From NCBI RefSeq assembly GCF_013415325.1, contig NZ_JACBYE010000018.1:1-64000 (forward strand): a DNA stretch of 64,000 nt. The letters run 5' to 3'. Positions 37,518-57,914 of this stretch are shown here, piece by piece (within the stretch, counting starts at the first letter, position 1; every line of letters starts with the position of its first letter). The notes under the pieces are model-generated. The model did no database searches, had not been told where the DNA came from, and worked only from the letters and a program-made list of their open reading frames with translations. The translations under genes and the position numbers were made by a program. Source of the DNA: Sanguibacter inulinus (lineage in GTDB: Bacteria > Actinomycetota > Actinomycetes > Actinomycetales > Cellulomonadaceae).

Positions 37518-38531
37518 TCAGGCTGTCCGGTCGACCAGGGACTCCGCGAAGGCCACGAGGGCGTCCTTCACAGGACCGTCCGGGAGGGGGACGAGCTCGG
37601 CGACCGCGTCCTGCGCCCAGGCGACAGCCTGCGCGCGGGTCTCCTCGACGACGGGGTGAGCACGCAGGGCCGCGACAGCCCCGGCGAGCGCCTCGTCGGA
37701 GCTGAGGTCGGAGTCGAGGAGGGCGAGGATCGCGAGGTCGTCGGGCGACGGCTGGGAGCTCGCGGCGACGTGGCTGCGCAGCAGGAGGACGGGCATGGTC
37801 GGGACGCCCTCGCGCAGGTCGGTCCCCGGGGTCTTGCCGGTGAGCGCACCGTCGGAGGTGAGGTCGATGACGTCGTCGGCCAGCTGGAAGGCGACGCCGA
37901 CCTTCTCGCCGAAGTTCGCGACGATCTCGACGATCTCCGGGCGGCACCCTGCGTACCTGGCGCCGAAGCGCGCGGAGGTCGCGATGAGCGAGGCGGTCTT
38001 GTCCGAGAGCACCTGGAGGTAGTGCTGGACGGCGTCTTCGTCGGGCCTGGGGCCGACGGTCTCGTGCAGCTGGCCGAGGCACAGCCTCTCGAAGGTCTCG
38101 GCCTGCCAGCGGACGGCCTCGGGGCCGAGCCCGGCGACGGTCACCGAGGCCCGCGCGAAGAGGAGGTCGCCGGTGAGGATCGCGACAGAGTTGCCCCACA
38201 CCTCGTGCGCGGCGGGTGCGCCGCGGCGCAGGGGCGCGGAGTCCATGACGTCGTCGTGGTACAGGGTCGCCAGGTGGGTGAGCTCGACGACGACGGCTGC
38301 GTCGATGACCTCGGGCCTGGCGGACTCGCCGAGCTCGGCGGTGAGCAGCGCGAGCAGGGGGCGCAGGCGCTTGCCCCCGGCGTCCACGAGGTGGCGGGAG
38401 GTCGTGTTCGCGAGCTCGTCCGCGTGCGTCACGGAGTCGCGCAGACGCTCCTCGACGTAGGCGAGCCGTGCGGCCAGCCTCTCGGCAAGGTCAGGGTCCG
38501 GCACAGGCAGCCCGATCGAAGCAGTAGTCAC
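37518..38531 (-). CDS. Polyprenyl diphosphate synthase (menaquinone side chain)
   Basis: 337 residues from GTG 38531. A -10-like TAGGTT lies 7 nt before it, the layout of a leaderless actinobacterial mRNA; the longer frame would start inside this promoter. Both aspartate-rich motifs are present: DDVMD after LTHLATLYH and DDVID after GVAFQLA, with GGKRLRP and the GDLLFARA helix. It condenses isopentenyl diphosphate with an allylic primer into a long all-trans chain. Adjacent to nuo and men genes, it most likely makes the menaquinone tail. Chain length cannot be read off reliably. Confidence 0.92.
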   Translation of the reverse strand: MTTASIGLPVPDPDLAERLAARLAYVEERLRDSVTHADELANTTSRHLVDAGGKRLRPLLALLTAELGESARPEVIDAAVVVELTHLATLYHDDVMDSAPLRRGAPAAHEVWGNSVAILTGDLLFARASVTVAGLGPEAVRWQAETFERLCLGQLHETVGPRPDEDAVQHYLQVLSDKTASLIATSARFGARYAGCRPEIVEIVANFGEKVGVAFQLADDVIDLTSDGALTGKTPGTDLREGVPTMPVLLLRSHVAASSQPSPDDLAILALLDSDLSSDEALAGAVAALRAHPVVEETRAQAVAWAQDAVAELVPLPDGPVKDALVAFAESLVDRTA

Positions 38532-38648
38532 GAGGTAGAACCTATCGTCTGTCGTGCCCCGAGCGTGCACTGACACCCGGCGGCAGAGGTCACACCGCTG
38601 CTGCGGCGACGATCTCGGTCACCCGAGGCCGCCACCACTGACCAGGCC

Positions 38649-40457
38649 TCAGCCGATGCCTGTGGCCCACCCGATGAGCTCGAGCAGCGGCGCCGGGAAG
38701 ACGCCGAGCACGACCACGAGCGCAGCGCACACCGCGACGGCCACGGCTGTGGGGCCCAGGCCCGTGACGACGGTGACCTGGGGCGCACCGTCCGCGAGCA
38801 GCACAGACGTCTGCGCCGGGCTGCTGGTCAGGCCCTCCGAGTCGCCCTCGACCCGAGCGCCCGGGCTGGCAGGTCCGTCCGGGACCAGGCCGGCAGGTCC
38901 GTCCTGGAGTGTCCCGGCAGGGTCCATGAAGAACATGATGACGATGATCCGGATGTAGAAGAACACCGCCACGGCAGAGGCGAGCACACCGACGACGGCG
39001 AGCACCTCGCCCGTCCCGAGCTGCGGGTTGCCCTCGACAGCCGCCGAGAAGGCACCGAACTTCGCGATGAAGCCCGCGGTCAGCGGGATCCCGGCGAAGG
39101 ACAGCAGGAACACCGAGAAGCACGCGGCGAGCCAGGGGCTGCGCTTGCCGAGCCCTGCCCACTGGCCCAGGTGCGTGGCCTCCCCGAGGACCTCTCCCCC
39201 GCTGCCCCGTTCGCGGACGAGGGAGACGACCCCGAAGGCGCCGACCGTGGCGACGCCGTAGGCGACGAGGTAGAAGATCACGGCCTTGATGCCCTGCGGG
39301 TTGAAGCCGAGGATCGCGACGAGCACGAAGCCCGCGTGCGCGATCGAGGAGTACCCGAGCATGCGCTTCATGTCGGTCTGGGTGGCACCGACGACCACGC
39401 CGACGGCCATCGTGGCGATCGCGACGACCCACATCGCCGTCTTGAAGGACAGCAGCATGTCGAGCGTGCCGCCGAGCCCGCCGAACCAGAGGATCCGCAC
39501 GAGCGCCCCGAAGGCGGCGATCTTGGTGCACGCCGCCATGAACCCGGTGACCGGGGTCGGGGCGCCCTGGTAGACGTCGGGCACCCATGCCTGGAAGGGC
39601 ACCGCACCGACCTTGAACAGCAGACCGCAGACGACCATGAGGAACCCGACGAGCCACAGCAGCTCCCAGCCGTCGGGCGAACCGCCCTGCACGACCGCGG
39701 TCGACGCCGTGGCCAGGTCGGCGAAGCGCACCGAGCCCGAGTAGCCGTACAGCAGGGCCGATCCGAAGAGGAAGATCGCCGAGGCGAACGCACCGAGCAC
39801 GAAGTACTTGAACGACGCCTCCTGCGACAGCAGCCTGCGGCGACGGGCCATGCCCGACATCACGTAGAGCGGCAGGGAGAGCACCTCGAGGGCGATGAAC
39901 ATGGTGAGCAGGTCGGCCGCTGCGGGGAAGATCAGCATCCCGCCGATCGCGAAGAGCAGCAGCGGGAACACCTCGGTCTGCTCGAGGCCACGACGACGCG
40001 CGAGCTCCTCGTAGTCCGAGCCCGGGATCGCCGCGACGCTCGGCGCGAAGGCGTCCTGCCCGCTCGCGCTGCGGTCGACGACCACGAGCACGGCGAGGAA
40101 GGCCACGACGAGGATCGTGCCCTGGAACATCAGCGCGATGCCCTCGATCACGAGCGACCCGCCGAGGACGACGACGGCGCCAGGCTTGTCGGGTCCGAGC
40201 CACTCGACGCACTGCCAGACGACCACGAGCAGCGCGGCGACGAGCGCCACGAGGATCAGCGGCACCTGGACCGCGCGCCGGAGCCGCGCGGGGACGAAGG
40301 CCTCGACGAGGACCGCGAGCACACCGGCCCCGAAGACGACGAGCAACGGCGCGACGGCGGTCCACTGCACCTCGGGCGGCGTGAAGCTCCCGGCGGCGAC
40401 GACGGCGGTCGCGGTCGAGCCTGCGGCTGCGCTGGCGGCTGCGGTGGTGAGGATCAT
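38649..40457 (-). CDS. nuoN: NADH-quinone oxidoreductase subunit N
   Basis: 602 residues, longer than E. coli NuoN (485). Antiporter-like membrane subunit with about 14 helices, MSGMARRRRLLSQEASFKYFVLGAFASAIFLFG containing the key lysine, and GVVVGATQTDMKRMLGYSSIAHAGF. A hydrophilic, repetitive Gly/Pro/Asp loop (TLQDGPAGLVPDGPASPG, about residues 510-550) is inserted before the last helix. One of three proton-pumping arm modules. Last gene of the nuo operon; overlaps nuoM by 4 nt. Confidence 0.95.
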   Translation of the reverse strand: MILTTAAASAAAGSTATAVVAAGSFTPPEVQWTAVAPLLVVFGAGVLAVLVEAFVPARLRRAVQVPLILVALVAALLVVVWQCVEWLGPDKPGAVVVLGGSLVIEGIALMFQGTILVVAFLAVLVVVDRSASGQDAFAPSVAAIPGSDYEELARRRGLEQTEVFPLLLFAIGGMLIFPAAADLLTMFIALEVLSLPLYVMSGMARRRRLLSQEASFKYFVLGAFASAIFLFGSALLYGYSGSVRFADLATASTAVVQGGSPDGWELLWLVGFLMVVCGLLFKVGAVPFQAWVPDVYQGAPTPVTGFMAACTKIAAFGALVRILWFGGLGGTLDMLLSFKTAMWVVAIATMAVGVVVGATQTDMKRMLGYSSIAHAGFVLVAILGFNPQGIKAVIFYLVAYGVATVGAFGVVSLVRERGSGGEVLGEATHLGQWAGLGKRSPWLAACFSVFLLSFAGIPLTAGFIAKFGAFSAAVEGNPQLGTGEVLAVVGVLASAVAVFFYIRIIVIMFFMDPAGTLQDGPAGLVPDGPASPGARVEGDSEGLTSSPAQTSVLLADGAPQVTVVTGLGPTAVAVAVCAALVVVLGVFPAPLLELIGWATGIG

Positions 40458-42127
40458 GAGTCGCTCCCCTCGGTCTGTGCGTCGGAGAGCGGGACGACGT
40501 CGGCGACGCCGACCTGCTCGAGGGTGACTGCTGCGGGGTCGCGGACCAGGTCGAGCGCAGGCCCGGGCACGAAGCCGAGCACGAGGAGCGCGACGACCAG
40601 CGGGGCGACCACCCAGCGCTCGCGCGCCGAGAGGTCACGCGTCCCGGCGAGCTCGGGCCGCGCGGGGCCTGTGAAGATCCGCTGATAGGTCAGCAGCACG
40701 TAGAGCGCCGCGAGCACGACCACGAAGGCCGAGACGATCGCGGCGACGGGGTACCTGCCGAAGGACCCGACGAGCACCATGATCTCGGAGACGAAGGTCG
40801 ACAGTCCTGGGAGCGACAGCGCGGAGAGCCCGGCGAGCAGGAAGACCCCCGCCAGGACCGGGGTGACCTTGGCCAGGCCGCCGAGCTCGCTGATCCGGCG
40901 CGAGCGGCCTGTCACGGTCCGCCGGACGACGAAGCCGCCGACGAGGAACAGCAGCCCTGTCGAGATCCCGTGGTTGAGCATGTAGAACGAGGCACCCGAG
41001 ACGCTGAGCTGGGTGAAGGCGAAGATGCCCAGGACGATCACGCCGAAGTGCGACACCGAGGTGTAGGCGACCAGGCGCATGAGGTCGTCCTGCCCGAGGG
41101 CGAGCAGCGCGCCGTAGAGGATGGACACGACAGCCAGCACGATCACCACCGGCGCCGCCCACCGGCTCGCGTCGGGGAACAGCGGGAGGCAGAGCGTGAG
41201 CATCCCGAAGGTGCCGACCTTGTCGAGCACACCGACCAGCAGGACGGAGGTGCCCGCGGGTGCGTGCTCGGCGGCGTCGGGCAGCCAGGATTGCACGGGG
41301 AACATCGGGGCCTTGATCGCGAAGGCGAGGAAGAACCCGAGGAACAGCAGGCGCTCGGTCGTCTGGTCGAGGCCGAGCCCTGTGAGGTTGTCCGTGAGGA
41401 AGCCCTGCTCGCCCCCGGGTCCCTGGACGTAGAGCACGATCACCGCGGCGAGCATGACGAGCCCGCCGGCGAGGGAGAAGATGAGGAACTTGATCGCCGC
41501 GTACCGGCGGCGGGCGCCGTCGCCGAAGCCGCCGATCATGAAGTACACCGGGACCAGCATGGCCTCGAAGACGACGTAGAAGAGGAAGACGTCGCGCGCG
41601 CTGAAGACGAGCACCATGAAGGTCTGCAGCACGAGGACCAGCGCGAGGTAGTGGCGCAGACGCCCCTCGCCGGCCTCGCGGAGGACGACGTCGGTCGGGC
41701 TCTCGGGACCGGCAGCACCGGGAACGCCGGACGCGCCGGAGGCGCTGCCGACGCTGCCCTTCGCGCGCCGGGTGCTGGCGGCACCGCTGACGCCCTGCTC
41801 GCGCCAGGCGGCGCCGATGACGAGCGGCACGAGGGCCACGCTCAGCACGACGAGCAGGAGTCCGACCCCGTCGACGGCCACGGCATAGCTCGCGCCGATC
41901 TGCGGGATCCACGCGTGGGTCTCGGCGAGCTGGTGGACGGCGGCCCTGGAGGTGTCGAAGGCCGCGACGGCGGCGACGACGAGCAGCACCTCGACGAGCG
42001 AGAAGGCGAGCGCGACGGGCCGAGCGAGCCTGCGCGAGCCACGGGGCAGCGCCCACAGCACGAGCGCGCCGACGAGCGGCACGACGGCCAGCAGGGTGAG
42101 CCACGGGATGTTCGGGTCGATGGTCAT
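40454..42127 (-). CDS. nuoM: NADH-quinone oxidoreductase subunit M
   Basis: 557 residues from the ATG at 42127. NuoM signatures FYVVFEAMLVPVYFMIGGFG with the essential membrane glutamate, KAPMFPVQSWLPDAAEHAPAGTSVLLVGVLDKVGTFGM and LVAYTSVSHFGVIVLG. An extra hydrophilic segment of about 45 residues (SGAASTRRAKGSVGSASGAS) sits in the loop before this region. Proton-translocating arm of complex I. Confidence 0.96.
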   Translation of the reverse strand: MTIDPNIPWLTLLAVVPLVGALVLWALPRGSRRLARPVALAFSLVEVLLVVAAVAAFDTSRAAVHQLAETHAWIPQIGASYAVAVDGVGLLLVVLSVALVPLVIGAAWREQGVSGAASTRRAKGSVGSASGASGVPGAAGPESPTDVVLREAGEGRLRHYLALVLVLQTFMVLVFSARDVFLFYVVFEAMLVPVYFMIGGFGDGARRRYAAIKFLIFSLAGGLVMLAAVIVLYVQGPGGEQGFLTDNLTGLGLDQTTERLLFLGFFLAFAIKAPMFPVQSWLPDAAEHAPAGTSVLLVGVLDKVGTFGMLTLCLPLFPDASRWAAPVVIVLAVVSILYGALLALGQDDLMRLVAYTSVSHFGVIVLGIFAFTQLSVSGASFYMLNHGISTGLLFLVGGFVVRRTVTGRSRRISELGGLAKVTPVLAGVFLLAGLSALSLPGLSTFVSEIMVLVGSFGRYPVAAIVSAFVVVLAALYVLLTYQRIFTGPARPELAGTRDLSARERWVVAPLVVALLVLGFVPGPALDLVRDPAAVTLEQVGVADVVPLSDAQTEGSDS

Positions 42128-42140
42128 CTGTCCGCCCCTC

Positions 42141-44066
42141 TCAGTTCCACACGAGCAGGACGACGACGACGAGGACACCGAACCCTGCGAGCATCATGGC
42201 CGCATAGGACCGGACGTAGCCGTTCTGGATCTTCTTCACGGCCTCGCCGAGCAGACCCAGGGCACCTGCGGCTCCCATGAACCCGCCGTCGACGACCTTC
42301 TTGTCGGCGTAGACGAGGGACCGCGTGAGGTACTGCCCGGGGCGCATGACGAGGTTCTCGTTGACGACGTCCTGGTACAGGTCGGCGCGCGCGGCACGGG
42401 TCAGGACGCTGCCCGCGGGCGGCTCGACGGGGACCGTCGAGGCACCGTACTGGCGCCAGGCGAGGACGGCCCCGCCGAGCACGAGCAGCAGCGTGAGGAC
42501 CATGATCACCGGGACGGGCAGCACGGGCTCGTGGTGCTCGACGTGTCCGGTGACGGGCTCGAGCCAGGACGCGAACGCTCCCCCGACCATGAGCAGACCA
42601 CCGAGGGCTGCGGACCCGACGGCGAGGACCACCATCGGCACGGTCATGAGGGCGGGCGACTCGTGCGGGTGCCGTACCGGCAGCCCCGAGCCGTCGTCGC
42701 TCTCGACCCAGCGGCGCTGGCCGTGGAAGGTCATGAAGAACAGCCGTGACATGTAGAAGGCCGTGATCCCTGCACCGACGAGCGCGACAAGACCGAAGAC
42801 CCAGGGCTGCCAGCCGTGGCCGCCGTCGGCCGCGAAGGCGCTCTCGATGATCTTGTCCTTGCTCCAGAACCCAGAGAAGGGCGGGATGCCGAGGATCGCG
42901 AGCCAGCCGAGCCCGAAGGTCACCCAGGTGACCTTCATGACCGCGGAGAGCCCGCCGAACCTGCGCATGTTCACGTCGTCGGACATGCCGTGCATCACCG
43001 AGCCTGCTCCGAGGAACATGCCGGCCTTGAAGAACCCGTGGGTCAGCAGGTGGAAGATCGCGAAGGCGTAACCGATCGGGCCGAGGCCCGCGGCGAGCAT
43101 CATGTAGCCGATCTGGGACATGGTCGAGGCGGCGAGGGTCTTCTTGATGTCGTCCTTGGCACAGCCGACGACAGCACCGAACACCAGGGTGACGGCGCCG
43201 ACGACGGCGGTGACGAGCAGGGCGTCCGGGGCCAGCGTGAAGACCGGGCCGGATCTGACGACGAGGTAGACACCCGCGGTGACCATGGTGGCGGCGTGGA
43301 TGAGCGCGGAGACGGGCGTCGGGCCCGCCATCGCGTCCCCGAGCCAGGACTGCAGGGGAAACTGGGCGCTCTTGCCGCAGGCCGCGACGAGCAGCATGAG
43401 GGCGATCGCGGTGAGGCGGCCCGTGTCGGTGGTCTCGGCCCCGGCGAAGACCGAGGCGAAGTCGACGGCCCCGAAGGAGCTGAACATCAGCATGAGCGCG
43501 ACGATCATCCCGACGTCGGCGACGCGGTTGACGATGAAGGCCTTCTTCGCGGCCGTCGCGTTGGCGGGCACGTGGTTCCAGAACCCGATGAGCAGGTAGG
43601 ACGCGAGCCCCACACCCTCCCAGCCGACGAAGAGCAGCAGGTAGGAGTCCGCGAGCACGAGCAGCAGCATCGCCGCGACGAAGAGGTTGAGGTACGCGAA
43701 GAACCTGCGCCTGTCCGCGTCGTGCTCCATGTACGCGACCGAGTACAGGTGGATGAGGGTGCCCACGAAGCTCACGAGCAGCACGAAGGTCAGCGACAGC
43801 GGGTCGACCCGCAGGCCGACGTCGACCACGAGCGAGCCGGCGTCGAACCAGCGCCCGACGTGCACGTCGACGACGCGGTCGGCGGCGTCCCAGCCGAGCA
43901 GGGTGAGCAGGTACACGGCGCCGAGCACGAAGGTCGCCGCCGAGGCGAGCACACCGAGCCAGTGCCCCCACGCGTCGGCGCGGCGGCCCGCGAGCAGCAA
44001 GATCCCGGCACCGACGAGCGGCACGACGACCAGCAACCAGGCAGAGTCGATCACAGAGGTGTCCAC
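42141..44066 (-). CDS. nuoL: NADH-quinone oxidoreductase subunit L
   Basis: 641 residues from GTG 44066, with GGGGAG 9 nt upstream. NuoL hallmarks: [71 protein letters not shown] and [15 protein letters not shown], then the long C-terminal amphipathic helix region that clamps the membrane arm. Distal proton-pumping module. Confidence 0.96.
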
Positions 44067-44082
44067 AGGTGTCCGCTCCCCG

Positions 44083-44382
44083 TCAGTTCTTCAGCAGGTT
44101 GACGTCGTCGACCGACGCAGACCTGCGGGTTCTAAAGATGGACACGATGATGGCGAGCCCGACGACCACCTCGGCGGCGGCGACGACCATCACGAAGAAG
44201 GCGATGACCTGGCCGCTGAGGTCTCCGTGCATGCGCGCGAAGGTGACGAAGGCGAGGTTGGAGGCGTTGAGCATGAGCTCGATGCCCATGAACACGATGA
44301 TCGCGTTGCGGCGCAGCAGCACCGTCGCGGCGCCGATCGAGAAGAGCAGGGCCGAGAGCACGAGGTAGTTGGACATGTCCAT
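44083..44382 (-). CDS. nuoK: NADH-quinone oxidoreductase subunit K
   Basis: 99 residues, the usual length. Three helices with [15 protein letters not shown] carrying the conserved membrane glutamate and [17 protein letters not shown] carrying the second. Start at ATG 44382 with GAGGAGGAG upstream; the frame runs on through nuoJ and is discarded. It lies 1 nt after the nuoJ stop. Confidence 0.96.
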
Positions 44383-44383
44383 G

Positions 44384-45259
44384 TCAGCTCTCCTCCTCGG
44401 TGGTCCGCGGCGGGGTGGGGTCGTCCGCACCCGGGGCGACAGGGTCTGCCGTCGGCTCGCCGGGCCGGTCCGTGCGGTCCACGTCGTGCGACGGGCCCGA
44501 GCCGACACCTCGTGGTCCCTGGCCGGACAGGTGCGCGATCTGCGCGTCGAGCGGCGCCTGCCGCTCCTGCCCGCGCACCCGCAGCACCCGCGAGACCGAG
44601 GCCTCGATGGGGCGGCCCTGCGGGTCGAGGGCCGGGACGTCCATCGCGTTGCGCTGGGCATAGACCCCCGGGGCGGGCAGCGGGACGAGCGACTCTCCGC
44701 TCGCGACCCGTGCGTCGGCGCGCTCCTTCTGACCCACGCGCGGGGTGAGCCGCTGCTTGTGGGTGAGCGTGAGGGCGGCGAGGGCGGCCGTGATGAGCAG
44801 GACGCCGACGACCTCGAGGTTGAACACGAAGTCGCCGAAGAGCACCCGGGCGATCGCGACGGGGTTGGTGTCGGCGTTCGCGGCCTCGAGACCGATCCCT
44901 GCGGGGAAGGACACCCGCAGGATCACACCCACGAGCACGGCGCCGAGCCCGATGCCGAGCAGCCAGCCCACGAGCCGCTGGCCACGGATGGTCTCGACGA
45001 GGGAGTCCGAGGCGTCCACGCCGACGAGCATGATGACGAAGAGGAAGAGCATCATCACGGCGCCCGTGTAGACGACGATCTGCACGATGCCGAGGAACGG
45101 CGCCTCGAGGGCGACGTACATGACGGCCAGGCAGACCATGACGAAGACGACGCAGAGCGTGGCGTGCACGGCCTTGCGGGCGAAGAGCAGCCCGAGCGCG
45201 GCGATCACCATGAGCGGCGCGAGGCACCAGAAGAGGACGGCCTCCGCCCCGCTCGTCAC
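44384..45259 (-). CDS. nuoJ: NADH-quinone oxidoreductase subunit J with hydrophilic C-terminal tail
   Basis: 291 residues from GTG 45259, which overlaps the nuoI stop as GTGA. Five helices in the first 170 residues, with [29 protein letters not shown] typical of NuoJ. E. coli NuoJ is 184 residues; the extra C-terminal 115 are polar, rich in Arg/Pro/Asp ([20 protein letters not shown]), and would face the cytoplasm. Confidence 0.95.
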
Positions 45260-46035
45260 GAGCGGCCCGTCCCGGTCGGAGCGGGTGCAGTCGCGGCTGG
45301 ACCCGGGGCGCCCCGCCCGGCGGCGGCGCGCGCCGTCTCGAGCGTCGGGTCGTCGGGCCTGTGCTCGGCGACCCAGGCGACCTGCTCGGGCGTCGGTCCG
45401 GTGACCTCGCCGCGGTAGTACTGGGTGTCCTCGGTCCCGGGGACCATCGGGTGCGGTGCGGCGAGCATGCCGTCGCGCAGCGGGGCCAAGAGGTCCTCCT
45501 TCTCGAAGATCAGCCCGGCACGTGTCGGGCCCGTCAGCTCGTACTCGTTGGTCATGGTGAGCGCGCGGGTCGGGCAGGCCTCGATGCACAGGCCGCAGAA
45601 GATGCAGCGCAGATAGTTGATCTGGTAGACGCTCCCGTACCGCTCACCGGGTGACCTGTGGCCCCCGTCGGGGAGGTCGGCGTTGCTTGCGCCCTCGACG
45701 TAGATGGCGTCCGCGGGGCAGGCCCAGGCGCAGAGCTCGCAACCGATGCACTTCTCGAGGCCGTCGGCATAGCGGTTGAGCTGGTGCCGGCCGTGGTAGC
45801 GGGGCTTGGTGGGCACCTTCTCGAAGGGGTACTGCTCCGTGACTGTGGGCCGGAACATCGAGGAGAAGGTCACGCCGAATCCCGCGACGGGCGCGATGAG
45901 CTCGCGGACCCCCGACGCGGCCGGGCGCAGCTGCTGGTACCCGGCTGCGCCGTCGGTCGAGCCTGTTGCAGGTCCGCCGGTCGTCTCGCGGCCGCCGTCA
46001 CCGCTGTGCGTGCCGTGCGTGCCGTGGTCACTCAT
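45256..46035 (-). CDS. nuoI: NADH-quinone oxidoreductase subunit I
   Basis: 259 residues from ATG 46035. Two 4Fe-4S motifs, [12 protein letters not shown] and [12 protein letters not shown], which carry clusters N6a and N6b of the electron chain to quinone. The core is about 165 residues; a Gly/Thr/His-rich N-terminal head (about 40 residues) and an Ala/Pro tail (about 50 residues) are extra. It overlaps nuoH by 8 nt and nuoJ by 4 nt. Confidence 0.96.
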
Positions 46036-47404
46036 CGTCGGTCTCCTTCGCGTGGGCCGTCGAGCTGTCGGACGCTGCTGGGACGCCTGGGTCGCCTGGA
46101 CCTGCGGAGATCGCCGCCGTGGCTCGCTGGCGCCGTGCTGCACGCGGCGAGGGCGGGAGCGACTGACCGGGCAGCGGGGGGACGGGATATCCGCCCGCGA
46201 AGGCGTCGAAGGGCTCGCCGGCCGCAGCACCGCCGGCGCCCGTAACTCCCGGCTCCTGCGCCGACGCAGGCTGCTTCTCGGGCCAGAACCTCAGCACCAG
46301 CATCGCCAGCAGGGCGACCGCGAAGACCACGACCCCGACGGTCTGGAGGTCGACACCGCTGAACTCGCGGACGCCGCGCACCACAGAGACGCACACGATC
46401 CAGGCGAGCGCCGCCGGGATGAGCACCTTCCAGCCGAAGCGCATGAACTGGTCGTAGCGCAGGCGCAGGACCGTCCCGCGGATCCACACGAAGAGGAACA
46501 TGAAGCCCCACATCTTCACGAGGAACCAGAGGATCGGCCACCAGCCCTCGTTGAACATGCCGTCGTTGATCGCGGAGATCGGGAAGGGGGCGCGCCACCC
46601 GCCGAGGAACAGCGTCGTGGCGACTGCGGAGACGTTGATCATGTTGATGTACTCGGCGAGGAAGAACCACGCGAACTTCATCGAGGAGTACTCGGTCATG
46701 TACCCGGAGACGAGCTCGCCCTCGGCCTCGGGGAGGTCGAAGGGAAGACGGTTGGTCTCGCCGACCATCGAGATCACGTAGATGAGGAAGGCCGGGAACA
46801 GCGGCAGGATCAGCCAGTACTCGGTCTGGTAGTCGACGATGTCACCCGTCGACATCGAGCCGACCATGATGAACACGCTCACGAGGGACAGCCCCATCGC
46901 GAGCTCGTAGCTGATGACCTGCGCCGTCGAGCGGACCGAGCCGAGCAGCGGGTAGGTGGAGCCCGAGGACCAGCCGCCGAGCACGATCCCGTACACGCCG
47001 ACCGACGCGCAGGCGAGGATGTACAGGACCGCGACGGGGAAGTCTGTCAGCTGCGCGGGTGTCGAGATGTTCGTGAAGGGGATGGTCACCTGCGGTCCGA
47101 GCGGGATGACCGCGAAGGTCAGCAGCGCGCAGAACACCGAGATCATCGGCGCGACGAGGTAGACGATCTTGTCGGCCGCCTTGACGGTGATGTCTTCCTT
47201 GAGCAGCAGCTTCATCGCGTCGGCGAGGGACTGCAGGAGCCCGAAGGGCCCGTGCACGTTGGGCCCTGGCCGCACCTGCATGCGGGCGACCACCTTGCGC
47301 TCGAACCAGATCGCGATGAGCACGCTCGTCAGCAAGAACACGAGGATGAGGACGGCCTTGACGAGGTAGGTCCAGAAGGTGTCGTTCGAGAAGTCGACCA
47401 TCAC
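46028..47404 (-). CDS. nuoH: NADH-quinone oxidoreductase subunit H
   Basis: 458 residues (an ATG one codon later, at 47401, fits equally well and overlaps the nuoG stop). Quinone-site motifs [29 protein letters not shown] and [28 protein letters not shown] are intact. E. coli NuoH is 325 residues; here a cytoplasmic tail of about 70-80 Ala/Pro/Gly-rich residues follows the last helix. It forms the junction of peripheral and membrane arms. Confidence 0.96.
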
Positions 47405-50051
47405 GCACCGTGCCCTTCGACGGAGGTCGGTGCGGCGCCGGCGGCGCGCACCTGGACGACGGCGCCGGGCGAGACGCCGAGGGTGCTGTGCACCTGCGAC
47501 CCCGGGGAGTTGAGCGGCACCCAGACGACGTGGTCCGGCATGTCCGTCACGACGAGCGGGAGCGTGATCGCGCCTGTCGACGTGGACACCTCGACCGACG
47601 AGGGCAGGTCACCGCCGACAGGGGCCGCACCCCTGCCTGCGCCGGTCACGAGCGCCGCCGCGGTCGCGGCCGACATCCGGGCGACAGGCCGCTTGGCCGT
47701 CCCGGCGAGGAAGAGCTCGCCGTCCTGGGCCCGCCCGCAGTCGAGCAGCATCCGCCACCCGGCGAGCACAGCCTGACCAGGCTGGAGCCCCGCAGGCTCG
47801 GTCACGGGCTCGGCAGGAGCCTCGACCCGCGCACCGTCCCAGCCGGCGAGCTGCTCGATCTCGGCGCGCACGGCGTCGAGCGAACCCAGACCGAGCGAGA
47901 CACCCATGACGTCGGCGACGGCGTCGAGCACCCTGTGGTCGGACAGCGCAGAGGAGTCGAGCGCTGCGGGGAAGGGACGGATGCGCCCTTCCCAGCTCCA
48001 GTACGCGCCGGCCTTCTCGGCCGGCGGGGCGACGGGGAAGACCACGTCCGCGTGCTCGGTCACGTCGCTCGCCCGCACCTCGAGCGAGACGACGAAGTCC
48101 GCCACCTCGAGGGCACCGCGCGCCGCGACAGGGTCGGGCAGGTCGGCGAGCTCGAGACCGCCGACGACCACACCGCGCAGCCGCCCCTCCGCGAGCGCCG
48201 AGACGATCCCGGCCGTGTCGAGGCCCGGGGTCTGCGGGAGGGTGTCGACCGACCACGCGGCCGCGAGGTCGACCCGCGCCGCGGCGTCGGAGACCGGGCG
48301 ACCGCCCGGCAGCAGGGTGGGCAGGGTGCCGGTCTCGACCCCGCCGCGCTCACCAGCACGCCGCGGGACCCAGGCGACCCGTGCTCCTGTGTGCTCGGCG
48401 AGCCTCAGCACGGCGGAGAAGCCTCCGGGGACGCCGGCGAGGCGCTCCCCGACGAGGATCACGCCCCGGCCGCCGTCCGCGAGCGCGTCACGGACGTGGG
48501 CGAGGTCGTCGTCGGTCCCGACGTCGTCGAGCACCTCGGGCTCGGTCCCCGGCGCGGCGGGGAGCAGCTCTCCGCCGCGGTCGCCGATCCGCAGCAGACC
48601 ACGCGAGGCGAAGGGCGCGATGCTGAACGCCCGCAGACCGCGAGTCTTGGCGGCCTTGCGCAGCCTGAGGAACACGACCCCGGCTTCTTCCTCGGGCTCG
48701 AGCCCGACGAGCAGCACGGCCGAGGCCGACTCGAGAGCGTCGAAGGTGACACCCAGACCAGAACCGGCGACGGCGTGCCCGAGGAAGGCGAGCTCTTCGT
48801 CGGAGTGCACCCGGGCACGGTGGTCGACGTCGTTGGTGCCGAGCACCACCCGGGCGAACTTCGCGTAGGCGTAGGCGTCTTCGATCGTCAGCCGACCGCC
48901 GGGCAGCACACCGACACCGCCGGCCGAGCGCCTGTCTGCTGTGCACGCGGCCCGCAGACCGGCGGCGGCCGCGTCGAAGGCCTCCATCCAGCTGGCGGGG
49001 CGCAGCTCGCCCCGGAAGCCGTCGGCCCCGCGCTCGCGGATCATCGGTGTGTTGATCCGGTCGGGCGCGGTCTGCCACGTGAAGGCGAAACGGTCCTTGT
49101 CGGTGATCCACTCTTCGTTGACCGCAGGGTCCTCCCCCGCCAGCCGGCGCATCACGGTGCCGCGGCGGTGGTCGACGCGGATCGCCGACCCCGAGGAGTC
49201 GTGCTCGGCGACGGACGGCGTCGAGACGAGGTCGAAGGGACGGGACCGGAACCTGTAGGCGGCCCCGGTCAGGGCACCGACCGGGCAGATCTGCACGGTG
49301 TTGCCGGAGAAGTACGACGCGAAGGGCTGACCTGACTCGTCGGGCTCGGCGCCGCCCGTGGGCCTGTCGCCCGGGCCGACGGGGTCCGCGAAGCCGAGCA
49401 CGTCGGTGTCGAAGCGGCCGATCTGCTGCTGCGCGCCACGCTTCTGCAGGTCGATGAAGGCGTCCCCGGCGATCTGCTTGGAGAACCTCGTGCAGCGCTG
49501 GCACAGGACGCAGCGCTCGCGGTCGAGGAGGATCTCGGTCGAGATCGAGATCGGCTTGGGGAAGGTCCGCTTGACGTCGACGAAGCGGCTGCTCGGCCGA
49601 CCGTTGCTCATGGCCTGGTTCTGCAGGGGGCACTCGCCGCCCTTGTCGCAGACCGGGCAGTCGAGGGGGTGGTTGATGAGCAGCATCTCCATGACCCCCT
49701 TCTGCGCCTTGTCGGCGACAGCCGAGGTGTGCTGGGTCTTGACGACCATGCCGGGTGTCGCCTCGAGGGTGCAGGAGGCCTGCGGCTTGGGCATCGGACG
49801 GACGTTGCCCTCGCGGTCGGGCATCGCGACGTCGACGAGGCACTGGCGGCACGCACCGGCGGGCTCGAGCAGCGGGTGGTCGCAGAACCTCGGGATCTGC
49901 ACCCCGACCTGCTCGGCTGCGCGGATGACGAGGGTGCCCTTGGGCACGGAGACCTCGACGCCGTCGAGGGTGAAGCTGATGTGGTCGGGCCGTGCGGGGG
50001 GCTCGGCCTGTGCGCCCTTGTCGACAGCGCCTTTGTTGTCGGTGACGGTCA

Positions 50052-50052
<1 letters not shown>
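47401..50052 (-). CDS. nuoG: NADH-quinone oxidoreductase subunit G
   Basis: 883 residues from the ATG at 50052, which overlaps the nuoF stop as TGATG. N-terminal ferredoxin domain ([20 protein letters not shown] and SC for the 2Fe-2S), then [14 protein letters not shown] and [11 protein letters not shown] for 4Fe-4S clusters, then a molybdopterin-oxidoreductase-like domain without catalytic function. It conducts electrons from NuoEF toward NuoI. Confidence 0.96.
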
Positions 50053-51397
<1,345 letters not shown>

Positions 51398-51401
<4 letters not shown>

Positions 51402-52351
51402 CGCTCCCCCTCGGTGGTCGTCGACGTGGTGTCGGCGGCCGCAGGCTCGGTCTTCTCGTCGGCGGCCGGTGCCGGCTCGTCGGTCGACGTGGTGGTGGCC
51501 GGCGAGGTGTCGGCCGGTGTCTCCTCGGTGCGCTCGGCGCTCGACTGCTCGGCGCCTGTCGACGGGGTCGCGTCGGCGGCCCCGCCGCCCTGGGCTGGAG
51601 CGTCCTCGTCGGGGGTCTGGTCTTCGGCACCGGTCCCACCCGGGCCGTCGGCGCCTGCAGTCCAGCCGTGCTCGCGCGCCAGCCGGGTCCCCCGGGTGGT
51701 GGGCTCGCCGGCTCCGACGCCCTCGTCGGCGCGGCCGTCCGTGAACCCCGCGAGGACGCGGGACATCTGCTTGAAGGAGCACACCGAGGACGCACCGCGG
51801 GTCGGTGCGACGTCCTTGCCCAGACGGAGGTCGTCGACGACGCCGCGGGCGCTCACCGGGGTCTGCTGGTCGAAGAACTCCCAGTTGACCATCATCACCG
51901 GCGCGTAGTCGCAAGCCGCGTTGCACTCGATGCGTTCGAGGGTCACCGCGCCGTCGTCGGTCGTCTCGTCGTGGCCGATCCCCAGGTGCTCGGACAGCTC
52001 GTCGAAGATCTCGTCGCCGCCCATGATCGCGCAGAGCGTGTTGGTGCAGACCCCGACCGTGTACTCACCGTTGGGGCGGCGCTTGTACTGCGTGTAGAAC
52101 GTCGCGACAGCCGACACCTCGGCCGGGGTGAGGTCGAGGACCCCCGCGCAGAACGTGATGCCCGAGCGCGAGACGTAGCCGTCCTCGGACTGGACGAGGT
52201 GCAGCATCGGCAGGAGCGCGGAGCGGGCCTGCGGATACCGGGCGACGATCTGGTGGGCGTCGGCGGTCAGCCGGGCGAGGGTGACCTCGTCGTAGCCGGT
52301 CCCCGTGGGGCCGACAGGTCGCTGCCCGGCGGGCTGGGTCTCGAGGCTCAT
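51398..52351 (-). CDS. nuoE: NADH-quinone oxidoreductase subunit E with acidic tail
   Basis: 317 residues from the ATG at 52351. Thioredoxin-like 2Fe-2S domain with VCTNTLC and [15 protein letters not shown] ligands in the first 190 residues. E. coli NuoE is 166 residues; the final roughly 110 are disordered, dominated by Glu, Asp, Thr, Ala and Pro ([19 protein letters not shown]). It partners NuoF at the NADH site. Confidence 0.96.
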
Positions 52352-53703
52352 CGGTCCACACCTCCCAGGACTGGGTCGAGCGAGGCGACCGCGACGACGA
52401 CGTCGGCGACCTGGCCGCCCTCGCACATCAGGGCGACAGCCTGCAGGTTGTTGAAGGACGGGTCGCGGAAGTGCGCCCTGTAGGGACGGGTGCCGCCGTC
52501 CGAGACCAGGTGCACGCCGAGCTCGCCTCGGGGGTGCTCGACGGTCTGGAACACCTGCCCGGCCGGGACCCTGAAGCCCTCGGTCACGAGCTTGAAGTGG
52601 TGGATGAGAGCCTCCATCGACTGCCCCATGATCTCCCTGATGTGCTCGAAGGAGTTGCCCGCACCGTCGGTCCCGACCGCCAGCTGCGCGGGCCACGCGA
52701 TCTTCTTGTCGGCGACCATCACGGGTTCACCCACGGAGCGCTCGAGCCGCTCGATGCACTGCGCGGCGATCTTGAGCGACTGGTAGCACTCTTCGATGCG
52801 CAGCACGACGCGGGAGTAGCAGTCGGCGTCGGTCGAGGTCGGCACGTCGAAGTCGTAGGTCTCGTAGCCGCAGTACGGCGCGGACTTGCGGACGTCGTAG
52901 GGCAGGCCCGCCGAGCGGAGCACCGGACCTGTCACCCCGAGCGCCATGCAGCCCGCGAGGTTGAGGTGCCCTGTGCCGACGAGCCTGGACTTGAAGATCG
53001 GGTTGGCGAGCATGAGGTCGCCCAGCTGCGCGAGGTACTTGCGGACCTCGGTGTCCATGTGCCAGAAGTCCTCGGACAGTCCCGCCGGGACGTCCTGCGC
53101 GACACCTCCTGGGCGGATGAACGCGTGGTTCATGCGCAGCCCCGTGATCGACTCGAAGATCCGCAAGATCTCCTCGCGGGCCGTGAAGGAGATGGTCATG
53201 ACCGTCGTCGCGCCCATCTCGTTGCCGCCGGTCCCCAGGCACACCAGGTGGCTCGCGACCCTGTTGAGCTCCATGAGCAGCACCCGGATCACCTGCGCGC
53301 GATCGGGGACGTCGTCCTCGATGCCCAGCAGCCGCTCGATCCCGAGGCAGTACGCGGCCTCCTGGAAGAACGGGGCCAGGTAGTCCATCCGCGTGCAGAA
53401 GGCGACACCCTGGGTCCAGGTGCGGAACTCCATGTTCTTCTCGATGCCCGTGTGCAGGTAGCCGACCCCGCAGCGCGCCTCGGTCACGGTCTCGCCGTCG
53501 ATCTCGAGCATGAGGCGCAGGACCCCGTGGGTCGAGGGGTGCTGGGGACCCATGTTGACGACGATGCGCTCTTCGCCCAGCTCGGCGATCTCGGCCGCGA
53601 TCTCGTCCCAGTCCCCGCCCGAGGACTCGAAGGACGGGACCGACGTGTCGTCGACAGGCGGGCGTGCGGCGTGCGGCGTCCCTGATCTGCTCTGCGTGCT
53701 CAC
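52348..53703 (-). CDS. nuoD: NADH-quinone oxidoreductase subunit D
   Basis: 451 residues from GTG 53703, overlapping the nuoC stop as GTGA. 49-kDa-type subunit: [61 protein letters not shown], and the C-terminal [27 protein letters not shown]. It forms the quinone-binding cavity with NuoB. NuoC and NuoD are separate genes, unlike the E. coli fusion. Confidence 0.97.
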
Positions 53704-54494
53704 GAGTAGGACCTCCTCTGGTCCGGCGGGGGCACCGTCGCACCCTTGTACTCCACGGGGATGCCACCGAGCGGATAGTCCTTGCGCTGCGGGTGGCCCG
53801 GCCAGTCGTCAGGCATGGCGATCCGGGCCAGGGCCGGATGACCGTCGAAGACGATCCCGAAGAAGTCCCAGGTCTCGCGCTCGTGCCAGTCGTTCGTCGG
53901 GTAGACGGTCGTGGTCGTCGGGATGTGCGGGTGGGAGTCGGGGACGGTGACCTCGAGGCGCAAGGACCGGCCGTGGGTGATCGACGTCAGGTGGTACACC
54001 GCGTGGAGCTCTCGCCCGACGTCACCGGGGTAGTGCACGCCCGAGACACCCAGGCTCAGCTCGAAGCGGAGGTCCTGGTCGTCGCGCAGCGCCTGGCACA
54101 CCGCGACGATGTGCTCCGGCCGCACGTGGATGGTCAGCTCGGTCCGCGCACCCGAACCGGCGGGCGGGTCGACCACCACACCCTCCACAGCAGCGTCGAA
54201 GGCTGTCCCACCCTCGGCCAGCACCTCGGCGAGGACGTCGACCACCTCGTCGTACCAGCCGCCGTAGGGCCTCGGCGTCGCGAGCGGCCGGGTGACCGGG
54301 CGGACAAGACCGCCGAAGCCTGAGGTGTCCCCCGAGCCGTGAGCGCCGAACATGCCTGTGCGGACCTCGACCACCTCGAGCTCTTCACGCCCCTCGGGAG
54401 CGGCCGGGGCCGCGAGCACGTCGCCGCCGGCTGTCACGTCGGTCCGCGGCTCGGCCGCCGACCCTCCCGTCGTGCCGGGGTCTTTCTCCGTCAT
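53700..54494 (-). CDS. nuoC: NADH-quinone oxidoreductase subunit C
   Basis: 264 residues. The conserved 30-kDa domain occupies the C-terminal 140, with [43 protein letters not shown] and [16 protein letters not shown] Gly/Ala/Glu-rich N-terminal region of about 45 residues is less conserved. Peripheral arm, bridging NuoB and NuoD. Confidence 0.96.
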
Positions 54495-55042
54495 CGCAGC
54501 AGCCCCTTCATCGCGGAGGTCGGGGTCGCCTCGAGCGCGGCGGCCTCGGCGGCGCGGGCTGCCTCCCGGCGGTTGACGCCGAGCGGCTGGTCCTGGATCT
54601 GCTGGTGCAGCGCGAGGATCGAGTTGATGAGCATCTCGGGGCGGGGCGGGCACCCGGGCAGGTAGATGTCCACGGGAACGATGTGGTCGACACCCTGGAC
54701 GATCGCGTAGTTGTTGAACATGCCGCCGCTCGACGCGCACACACCCATCGACAGCACCCACTTGGGCTCGGGCATCTGGTCGTAGACCTGACGGACCACC
54801 GGAGCCATCTTCTGGCTCACGCGTCCCGCGACGATCATGAGGTCCGCCTGGCGCGGCGACGCGCGGAACACCTCCATGCCGAAGCGCGAGAGGTCGAAGC
54901 GGCTCGCGCCCGCCGCCATCATCTCGATCGCGCAGCACGCGAGCCCGAAGGTCACCGGCCACAGCGAACCCTTGCGGAAGTACCCCGCAAGGTCTTCGAC
55001 GGTGGTCAGGAGGAATCCTGAGGGAGCTTCTTCGATCCCCAT
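54491..55042 (-). CDS. nuoB: NADH-quinone oxidoreductase subunit B
   Basis: 183 residues. The terminal N2 cluster ligands are visible: the tandem ACC of [11 protein letters not shown], the Cys of [15 protein letters not shown], and [28 protein letters not shown] is diagnostic. It hands electrons to quinone. A 111-bp spacer, the largest inside the operon, separates it from nuoA; no hairpin or promoter is convincing there. Confidence 0.97.
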
Positions 55043-55153: not shown

Positions 55154-55516
55154 TCAGTCCCACTCGAATCCGCCGCGGCGCCACTCGTAGACGAAGGGCA
55201 CGGTGATGAGGGCGAGGAAAGAGAGCATCGCGACGAGCCCGAACATCGCGAGCGTCGAGAAGTCGACGGCCCACGGGTAGAGGAACACGACCTCGATGTC
55301 GAAGATGATGAAGGTCATCGCGACCAGGTAGTACTTCACCGGGAAGCGCCCCCCGCCCGTCGCGTGCGGTGTCGGCTCGATCCCGCACTCGTAGGCGTCG
55401 AGCTTGGCGCGGTTGTAGCGCTTGGGACCGATGACAGCGCTCGCGGCGACGCCGCCGAGAGCGAGGACCATCGCGATCCCCATGAGGACCAGCAGCGGGA
55501 CGTAGGGGTTGTTCAT
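55154..55516 (-). CDS. nuoA: NADH-quinone oxidoreductase subunit A
   Basis: 120 residues from the ATG at 55516, overlapping menJ as ATGA. Three helices, with the conserved Cys-containing loop AYECGIEPTPHATGGGRFPVKYYLVAMTFIIFDIEVVFLYPWA. First complex I gene, translated in register with menJ. Confidence 0.96.
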   Translation of the reverse strand: MNNPYVPLLVLMGIAMVLALGGVAASAVIGPKRYNRAKLDAYECGIEPTPHATGGGRFPVKYYLVAMTFIIFDIEVVFLYPWAVDFSTLAMFGLVAMLSFLALITVPFVYEWRRGGFEWD

Positions 55517-56808
55517 GCGTTCGGCACCACCCTCGCGAGCCCGGCGATCACGCGGTCGACGATGTCGCCGCCGTGAGGCTCGTAGCAGTCGGACAGGAGC
55601 TTGACGACGATCTTCATGACGAGCGGCCTGGGCAGCCCGTAGGTGGTGCACAGGCGCATGACGCGCGGGTGCTCGATCACCCGGACGAAGATCCGCCCGA
55701 GCGTGTAGTAGCCGCCGAGGTCGCGGCTCATGGTGTCGGCGTAGGTCGACAGGGCCCGCTCGCGCGAGTCGTCCGTGGTCCGTGCGGCGGCCTGGGCGAT
55801 CACGTCGGCGGCGACGCGGCCGGCCTGCATGGCGTAGGCGATGCCCTCACCGTTGAAGGGGCTCACCATGCCGCCCGAGTCACCGACGAGCATGAGTCCG
55901 CGGGTGTAGAGCGGCTTGCGGTTGAAGGCCATCGGCAGGGCGGCCCCGCGGACCGGGCCGATCTGGTTCTCGGGGGTGAAGCCCCACTCTTCGGGGGTGT
56001 TCTCCATCCACTGCGCGAAGAGCTTCTTGTAGTCGATCTTCGTGGCGGCGGCCGTCGAGGAGACCGACCCGAGGCCGACGTTGACCGTGCCGTCGCCGAG
56101 GGCGAAGATCCAGCCGTACCCGGGCAGCAGGTTGGACTTCCCCGGGGCGCCGTCCCACAGCTCGAGCTGGGACTCCATCCACGGGTCGTCGTGGCGGGGG
56201 CTGGTGAAGTAGGTGCGGACCGCGACACCCATCGGCCGGTTCATGGCCTTCTCGATGCCGAGCGACGTCGCCATGCGGGCCGAGACACCGTCGGCGGCGA
56301 TGACGACAGGTGCGCGGTAGGTGGTCTCGTCGCCGGCGCGACGTCCGTCGGCGTCGACGGGCCTGGCGGTGACACCGACCACCCGACCGGTCCGCTCGTC
56401 GACGACGGGTCCGGTGACGTTGGTGCGCTCCATGAGCTTGGCGCCGGTCGCCCGGGCGTGCTCGGCGAGGGTCTGGTCGAGGTTCATCCGCGAGCGCGCG
56501 AGCCCGTACGACGGGTACGAGCGGAGCTCGGGCCAGGGGAACTCGAAGGACCGTCCGCCCGCGACGGCGCGCAGGCCGATGTTGCGGATCCAGCCGTCTT
56601 CCTCGCGGGTGGGCACACCCATCCGGACGAGCTCGCTCACCGCTCGCGGGGTCAGTCCGTCGCCGCAGATCTTGTCGCGAGGGAAGCCTGACTTCTCCAT
56701 GAGGATGACGTCGAGGCCAGCGGCGGCACAGTAGTGCGCAGCGGCAGACCCGGCCGGGCCCGCGCCGACGACGATGACGTCTGCGTCATCGTTGCCCGTG
56801 AGTCTCAT
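55513..56808 (-). CDS. menJ: Menaquinone isoprenoid reductase MenJ (geranylgeranyl-reductase family)
   Basis: 431 residues. FAD-dependent reductase with VIVVGAGPAGSAAAHYCAAAGLDVILMEK, SGFPRDKICGDGLTPRAV, and LMLVGDSGGMVSPFNGEGIAYAMQAGRVAAD. In mycobacteria MenJ saturates the beta-isoprene unit of menaquinone. It is the first gene after a Rex box and overlaps nuoA by 4 nt, so quinone tailoring is transcribed with the enzyme that reduces quinone. The identity rests on family plus context; other geranylgeranyl reductases look similar. Confidence 0.85.
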   Translation of the reverse strand: MRLTGNDDADVIVVGAGPAGSAAAHYCAAAGLDVILMEKSGFPRDKICGDGLTPRAVSELVRMGVPTREEDGWIRNIGLRAVAGGRSFEFPWPELRSYPSYGLARSRMNLDQTLAEHARATGAKLMERTNVTGPVVDERTGRVVGVTARPVDADGRRAGDETTYRAPVVIAADGVSARMATSLGIEKAMNRPMGVAVRTYFTSPRHDDPWMESQLELWDGAPGKSNLLPGYGWIFALGDGTVNVGLGSVSSTAAATKIDYKKLFAQWMENTPEEWGFTPENQIGPVRGAALPMAFNRKPLYTRGLMLVGDSGGMVSPFNGEGIAYAMQAGRVAADVIAQAAARTTDDSRERALSTYADTMSRDLGGYYTLGRIFVRVIEHPRVMRLCTTYGLPRPLVMKIVVKLLSDCYEPHGGDIVDRVIAGLARVVPNA

Positions 56809-56950
56809 GCCGTGCCACCTGTCCGACGCGAGCTGCCTGTGAGGTCTGGGCCGGGGGTCACGCCGTGACAGAGGTCACCGTCGAGCCCCGTACCTGCCGT
56901 GCTGGTCCTGCGGGTCGTGCTGCTGATCCTGGCCGTCTCGCGACGACCGC

Positions 56951-56968
56951 TTGTGAACTTCTTCACAA
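56951..56968. promoter_or_regulatory. Rex operator upstream of menJ-nuoA-N
   Basis: TTGTGAACTTCTTCACAA is an exact match to the Rex consensus TTGTGAA-n4-TTCACAA, and the dyad extends by GC on each side (56949-56970). It lies just downstream of a -10-like TAGAGT on the minus strand (56985-56980), a repressing position. Rex senses NADH/NAD+ and is known to control nuo in streptomycetes. Confidence 0.88.
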
Positions 56969-57030
56969 GCGACGAGGCCACTCTATCCACGGTTCCCTCA
57001 CATTGTCTGCTTAGGCGACCCTTGCCTGGG

Positions 57031-57218: not shown

Positions 57219-57914
57219 TCAGGCCGGGCGTGTCGCCCTGTGCAGCGCGACGATCCCGCCGGTGAGGTTGCGGTAGCCGACAGAGCCCCACCCGGCATCG
57301 AGCAGGAGACGGCCGAGGCCCTCCTGGTCGGGCCAGGCGCGGATCGACTCGGCGAGGTACTCGTAGGACCCGGAGTCCTTGGTCACGGCCCCGGCGACCT
57401 TCGGCAAGGCACGCATGAGGTACTCGGAGTAGACGGTGCGGAACGGCTTCCACGTCGGCTGGGAGAACTCGCACACCACCAGGCGCCCGCCCGGGCGCAC
57501 CACGCGCAGCATCTCGCGGAGCCCGCCCACGGTGTCCACCACGTTGCGCAGCCCGAAGGAGATGGTCACGGCGTCGAAAGACGCGTCGGCGAAGGGCAGA
57601 CGGGTCGCGTCGCCGGCTGTGAAGGGGAGGTCGGGCCTGCGGGACTTGCCGACGCTGAGCATGCCGAAGGAGAAGTCGCACGGGACCACGCGCGCGCCGG
57701 CCGCGGCGAAGGGCTCGCTCGACGTGCCGGTCCCCGCGGCGAGGTCGAGGACCGTCTCCCCGGGCTGGGCGTCGACGGCCTGGAGGGTGGCGCGACGCCA
57801 CGACCTCGTCTGCCCGGCCGAGACCAGGTCGTTGACCAGGTCGTAGTGCTGGGCGATCCCGTCGAACATCGACGCGACCTCGGTGGGCTTCTTGTCCAGG
57901 CTCGCACGTGACAT
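57219..57914 (-). CDS. menG: Demethylmenaquinone methyltransferase MenG (UbiE family)
   Basis: 231 residues. SAM-binding [59 protein letters not shown] and the MenG/UbiE signature region with [14 protein letters not shown] and [20 protein letters not shown]. It methylates demethylmenaquinone, the last ring step. Divergent from menF with 60 bp between the start codons. Confidence 0.95.

Follow-up and report, generated by a model that had tools for sequence, protein, structure and literature searches.

The question raised by this locus is whether the inverted repeat in front of menJ and the complex I genes of Sanguibacter inulinus is a true operator for the NADH-sensitive repressor Rex, and, if it is, what else might act on the same promoter. 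In the window, by which we mean the whole stretch of 64,000 nucleotides that was analysed, positions 56951-56968 read TTGTGAACTTCTTCACAA, without a single mismatch to TTGTGAANNNNTTCACAA. The repeat, TTGTGAA-cttc-TTCACAA (TTGTGAAGAAGTTCACAA when the minus strand is read from 56968 to 56951), showed 0 of 14 mismatches in the inverted-repeat test against the Rex operator TTGTGAA-N4-TTCACAA. The earlier note on this DNA had placed an exact Rex dyad, extended to 22 bp by GC ends, on the promoter of menJ-nuoA-N. The exact dyad stands, over the predicted start of transcription, and so does its extension; the length needs correction, as the perfect palindrome spans 24 bp (56948-56971), 3 bp beyond the box on each side. 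At 71% G+C, base composition would be expected to yield about 4e-6 perfect 14/14 sites per window and 3e-4 per genome. A match to the looser form TTGTGA-N6-TCACAA with up to two mismatches is unremarkable, being present in 30 of 100 shuffles of the window. The same note had proposed a search for more boxes, and this brought up no second one: the menJ-nuo box is the only TTGTGAA-N4-TTCACAA site with at most one mismatch in the genome. The reversed pattern, run as a control at that threshold, gave 0 sites in each of 39 genomes, against a true site in 22 of the 39. With up to three mismatches allowed, the genome has 13 Rex-like sites versus 6 for the reversed control, and it is conceivable that further weak but true Rex sites are among the 13.

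The box stands 142 bp upstream of menJ (55513-56808, minus strand), the lead gene, which encodes a menaquinone/geranylgeranyl reductase of the MenJ type. The best model for its product is NF045655 (MenJ) at 252 bits, under the 700-bit cut-off and hence short of a curated MenJ assignment; TIGR02032 (GG-red-SF) matched at 241 bits, over its cut-off of 158.8. The product is best filed in the geranylgeranyl-reductase superfamily, MenJ-like by its best model and its menG-nuo context. S. keddieii is reported to contain the partly saturated quinone MK-9(H4) (PMC3035225), and a MenJ-type enzyme is therefore plausible despite the score under the MenJ cut-off. The nearest named relatives of menJ are from Sanguibacter, at 90% and 88% identity, and two genomes of the genus have promoters identical with those of these relatives. 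The start of nuoA (55154-55516, minus strand) overlaps the menJ stop codon (ATGA), and nuoB to nuoN (38649-55042, minus strand) follow after a spacing of 111 bp, each subunit scoring over an NCBIfam cut-off. All 14 nuo genes lie on the minus strand after menJ, the last ending at 38649, and because of this orientation and spacing we infer a single menJ-nuoA-N transcript. A gene of the polyprenyl diphosphate synthase family (37518-38576, minus strand; family match below equivalog cut-offs) comes after nuoN with a gap of 72 bp. Upstream of menJ lies menG (57219-57914, minus strand), encoding demethylmenaquinone methyltransferase (NF001241, 379 bits, cut-off 327), from which menF diverges. Over 37518-63999 the nuo operon is found amid menaquinone genes, namely menC and menD (both recognized by eye), menF, menG, menJ and the polyprenyl synthase gene.

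The proposal of the earlier note depended on a rex gene being present in the genome, and one is encoded there (G000:C53), its product scoring 320 bits against NF003992 (cut-off 226) and matching a solved Rex structure at 2.8e-42. A dyad of the form TTGTGA-N6-TCACAA fits the CRP consensus as well as that of Rex, and owing to this overlap the co-occurrence of the box with rex was tested across genomes. Among the 25 genomes in which menJ adjoins nuoA, the window's own included, the box was present in all 20 that have rex and in none of the five that do not (Fisher 1.9e-5, a value that ignores phylogeny); the five (G006, G026, G032, G035 and G036) belong to five different families. Sites with at most one mismatch were found in 22 of the 28 genomes with a rex match over the Pfam cut-off and in 0 of the 11 without. 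A box with up to three mismatches preceded menJ at 98 of 110 family loci, a count that mixes two collections and includes some species twice. The class-wide set comprised 80 regions from 79 genomes, hand-chosen for contig room before any box scoring: 60 rex-positive genomes with nuoA, drawn from a larger number, and 19 rex-negative genomes. G105 and G155 are omitted from it, G085, with a sole PF06971 match below the cut-off, is counted as rex-negative, the rex-negative region of G059 is cut at 876 bases and the G041 region ends inside menJ. In this set a box with up to two mismatches preceded menJ or nuoA in 54 of 60 rex-positive regions (one not assessable) and in 2 of 20 rex-negative regions (Fisher 2e-11 on 59 + 20 regions, phylogeny again being ignored). 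The latter two regions come from genomes that are 76% and 73% complete, and genome incompleteness is the only explanation offered here for their boxes. The box was not found at nuo in five assessable rex-positive class genomes (G117, G067, G154, G060 and G094), nor before menJ in three rex-positive relatives in which menJ lies apart from nuoA (G029, G030 and G031). With these exceptions, the box co-occurred with rex across the genomes.

The earlier note had regarded menJ at the head of a nuo operon as the unusual part of this locus. Wider sampling did not bear this out, as the layout is frequent among actinomycetes: menJ directly precedes nuoA in 25 of 30 menJ-bearing genomes, at 78 of 80 GTDB loci (the contig ends in the other two) and in 46 of 80 class-wide regions, the last from 22 families. 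A ubiE-ggr-nuo cluster has been described in Actinomyces oris (PMC5478893); as here, menG/ubiE, a geranylgeranyl reductase gene (menJ) and nuo are joined in one cluster, the difference being that the word 'Rex' has 0 matches in the main text of that paper. When rex-positive class regions have menJ before nuoA, 39 of 43 carry the box before menJ, and when that adjacency is lacking, 15 of 17 carry it before nuoA. In the family designated f34 the box lies directly before nuoA, with menJ about 1.85 kb away in two of five genomes and not found in the sequence retrieved for the remaining three. This position agrees with the site published for Streptomyces avermitilis (PMC5355995), and by its operator the family would appear to be Streptomyces-like.

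Two other explanations of the dyad were considered. It could be a site for a cAMP receptor of the CRP/GlxR type (TGTGA-N6-TCACA), as the two consensus sequences share most of their positions. CRP-like sites probably do exist in this genome, because TTGTGA-N6-TCACAA with up to two mismatches occurs 22 times, the reversed control giving 5; among the 22 are another perfect copy, beside lgt, and weaker copies before the sugar genes rhaI and a UgpC-type ABC ATPase gene. The genome also has 13 matches to CRP-type HTH domains. However, although all 39 genomes have CRP-type genes, the five that lack the box among the 25 with menJ next to nuoA are precisely the five that lack rex. In addition, the window shows no mismatch in the inner AA..TT that is specific to Rex sites, and at other loci this motif accompanies Rex-type targets. 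The box accompanies rex and not CRP, and a CRP site at this position is very improbable. Another possibility is that Rex controls menJ alone and that nuo is transcribed from a promoter of its own, and the boxes placed directly before nuoA in family f34 do indicate that menJ need not be coupled to nuo. Three results speak against that possibility: the ATGA overlap of menJ with nuoA in the window, the lack of another Rex site with at most one mismatch in the genome, and the box before nuoA itself in 15 of the 17 rex-positive regions in which the genes are not adjacent. We regard control of menJ alone as unlikely.

The box overlaps a predicted promoter. On the minus strand, the order before menJ is AGG-CA-AGG-GTCG-CCTAAG, CAGACA, an 18-bp spacer, TAGAGT, 11 bp and then the Rex box. 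TAGAGT (56980-56985), which ends 11 bp before the box, is the predicted -10, as TANNNT recurs at a narrow distance across the family; it is present within 26 nt upstream of the box in 54 of 56 class promoters against 1 of 56 in a control window. In the family promoters, the stretch examined for a -10 was limited to 12-25 nt before the Rex box. CAGACA (57004-57009; family consensus YASACA) is the predicted -35 by column conservation, and a scan of the predicted promoter, -35 included, with a generic sigma-70 consensus found nothing. With the usual spacing, +1 would fall near 56973 and the Rex box would then extend from +6 to +23. A transcript start far from the box had been named by the earlier note as the observation that would count against it, and as far as sequence tells the two are close together. 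A Rex box over the predicted transcription start is in the position of a repressor site, and it is very probably a functional Rex operator over the start of menJ-nuoA-N, at which Rex would bind and repress. When NADH/NAD+ is low, Rex would occupy the start and initiation would be blocked; NADH would release Rex, so that complex I and the enzyme saturating the menaquinone tail would be made when NADH is available to oxidise. Rex of S. avermitilis is reported to bind and repress nuoA1-N1, and its site at cydA1 covers -3 to +25 (PMC5355995). The two systems share the operator consensus and the nuo target, and the arrangement described for cydA1, a NADH-sensitive repressor with its operator over the transcription start, is the one predicted here. 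The S. avermitilis nuo operator lies 147 nt before nuoA and has two mismatches, whereas the present one is perfect and stands before menJ (PMC5355995).

The other sites with at most one mismatch in the relatives read as a Rex-type target list. Of 26 such sites away from menJ, 21 fall in the twenty regions examined; the remaining five are in G028 (one), G029 (two), G031 and G038. Seven of the regions have the site before cydA (matched to PF01654 coordinates), three before adhE, one before nrdD, two before an ATP-synthase-associated gene, two beside menB and one before an NADH-dehydrogenase-like gene, and L178, L192, L194 and L196 carry no target assignment. Two of these names were given by eye: adhE for L190, and NADH dehydrogenase for L185, which matched general oxidoreductase models only and below cut-off. 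The boxes adjoining menB lie near position 2001 of L188 and L191 (genomes G014 and G023), and from these the reach of Rex may include menaquinone synthesis itself. In each of six Sanguibacter genomes searched, the menJ-nuo site was the sole one with at most one mismatch. No Rex box was found in the cydA promoters (best 5-6 mismatches) or the rex promoters (best 5-7 mismatches) of these six genomes. Judged by such matches, the nuo site is the last strong Rex site seen in Sanguibacter, which would make this an odd, shrunken regulon. The S. avermitilis regulon, by comparison, is given as nuoA1-N1, cydA1B1CD, rex-hem and atp, the present case differing in that rex and cydA are without a box (PMC5355995). 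Weak Rex-like sites before rhaI and the UgpC-type ABC gene and beside lgt were judged from their neighbours not to be Rex sites.

Besides this sole strong Rex site in six genomes of the genus, what is new relative to the earlier note is a second conserved element at the -35. It has the form AGG-NN-AGG-N4-CCTAA (57011-57027, minus strand), abuts the predicted -35 and consists of a half-site core, AGGGTCGCCT, at 57013-57022 and an extra AGG at 57025-57027; its conservation in the family and comparison with a published site (PMC8464063) mark it as IdeR/DtxR-like. Promoters of the family and its neighbours were aligned on the Rex box, 92 distinct ones being left of the 110 loci once repeats and two loci from outside the family (L039 and L040) had been dropped. 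AGG-N4-CCT abuts the -35 in 74 of the 92, whereas shuffling their letters yields 3.6 on average and at most 9. The distance from the element to the -10 is 36 or 37 bp in all 74 recorded pairs. AGG occurs again 5 bp upstream (AGG-N9-CCT) in 41 of the 92, other spacings tried having given 0 to 18, and this is the tandem-repeat spacing of IdeR/DtxR boxes. The AGG and CCT columns were fixed by the search itself; the best columns flanking them are a G three before AGG, a T after CCT, a G before CCT and an A before AGG. The family form is therefore AAGG-N4-CCTT and not the exact IdeR half site TTAGG-N4-CCTAA, to which the element in the window conforms at 8 of 10 positions. A complete 19-bp IdeR box was rejected for the promoter in the window (12/19), as was a class-wide distribution of the element, AGG-N4-CCT being present in 3 of 56 class promoters. 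Of eight loci without a Rex box, six keep the element at exactly 36 bp, two of the six sharing one promoter, and it was not found in the other two (L041 and L042). Among these eight, the promoter stretch of L116 equals that of L030, and rex status covers the loci other than L115, L116 and L124. The half-site match is 10/10 in two Georgenia, 9/10 in G036 and 8/10 in the rest, and in 2000 shuffles of each locus the pattern arises 1 to 3 times. A DtxR/IdeR protein is encoded in the genome (L311; 309.7 bits with NF053665, cut-off 290; 1.8e-73 against the IdeR structure 1fx7), and all 39 genomes have PF02742. Only one 19-bp IdeR-type box with three or fewer mismatches occurs in the genome (16/19; L307, 1501-1519), and it lies before a lipoprotein-like gene. 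The product reads like a siderophore-binding protein, and an NCBIfam search with it at 1e-15 gave no model match.

On balance we favour the interpretation that the element abutting the -35 is an iron box to which IdeR/DtxR would bind as one dimer, and from its position next to the -35 (about -44) we lean slightly towards activation rather than repression. A less probable but still quite possible explanation is that a different activator binds there, or that the element belongs to the promoter proper. This has on its side the family consensus, AAGG-N4-CCTT, the rank of TTAGG among the 1024 half sites at spacing 4 (67th), and the finding that 6 of 2999 permutations of the consensus (three of them distinct) equal or beat the IdeR 19-mer. 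The modest agreement of the window with IdeR sites (8/10 for the half site, 12/19 for the 19-mer) and the restriction of the element to 3 of 56 class promoters point the same way. It would, however, leave aside the tandem-repeat spacing of IdeR in 41 of 92 promoters, the closer matches at the same 36-bp position in loci that have no Rex box (10/10 in the two Georgenia, 9/10 in G036), and a genome that encodes IdeR/DtxR and has a near-canonical iron box before a putative siderophore-binding protein. It also sits less well with the finding that IdeR binds a nuo half site as one dimer in Saccharopolyspora erythraea, with its function there given as unknown, in a paper that also cites iron induction of nuo in Mycobacterium tuberculosis (PMC8464063). 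The S. erythraea site has the same AGG-N4-CCT geometry at a complex I promoter; the present candidate differs from it in having mostly AAGG..CCTT flanks and a constant distance to the -10, in being conserved across the family, and in standing next to a Rex operator (PMC8464063).

Complex I carries many iron-sulphur clusters and is a main sink for NADH. If the element is an iron box, Rex (sensing NADH) and IdeR (sensing iron) would together make expression dependent on NADH and on iron sufficiency. We put at about even the chance that the complex I promoter of the Cellulomonadaceae and their neighbours is a two-input switch of this kind, in which Rex acts over the start and IdeR/DtxR binds as one dimer at the -35. 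That reading includes joint control of complex I and quinone saturation, with an iron input that would be independent of Rex and survive in lineages that lost rex. A conserved promoter reading NADH and probably iron would, if true, explain how actinomycetes adjust complex I, together with its quinone's state, to supply, and the nuo half site, so far reported from one species in the literature covered, would become a conserved regulatory rule. The novelty of the Rex box itself is modest, and published comparative genomics of Rex regulons may list actinobacterial nuo sites; that of the paired-site promoter would be higher if binding were shown. A search of the open-licence literature by titles and word counts found no publication joining Rex and IdeR at nuo, and one paper on M. 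tuberculosis contains both words (PMC6593118). The paired promoter makes testable an open question about IdeR, as a review notes that half sites in other species and the role of IdeR there remain to be examined (PMC10317159). A minor observation is that the leader separating menJ from the Rex box (56809-56950) exceeds that of G003, the closest relative, by about 64 bp, the box lying 160 bp before the start in the window and 96 bp before it in that genome.
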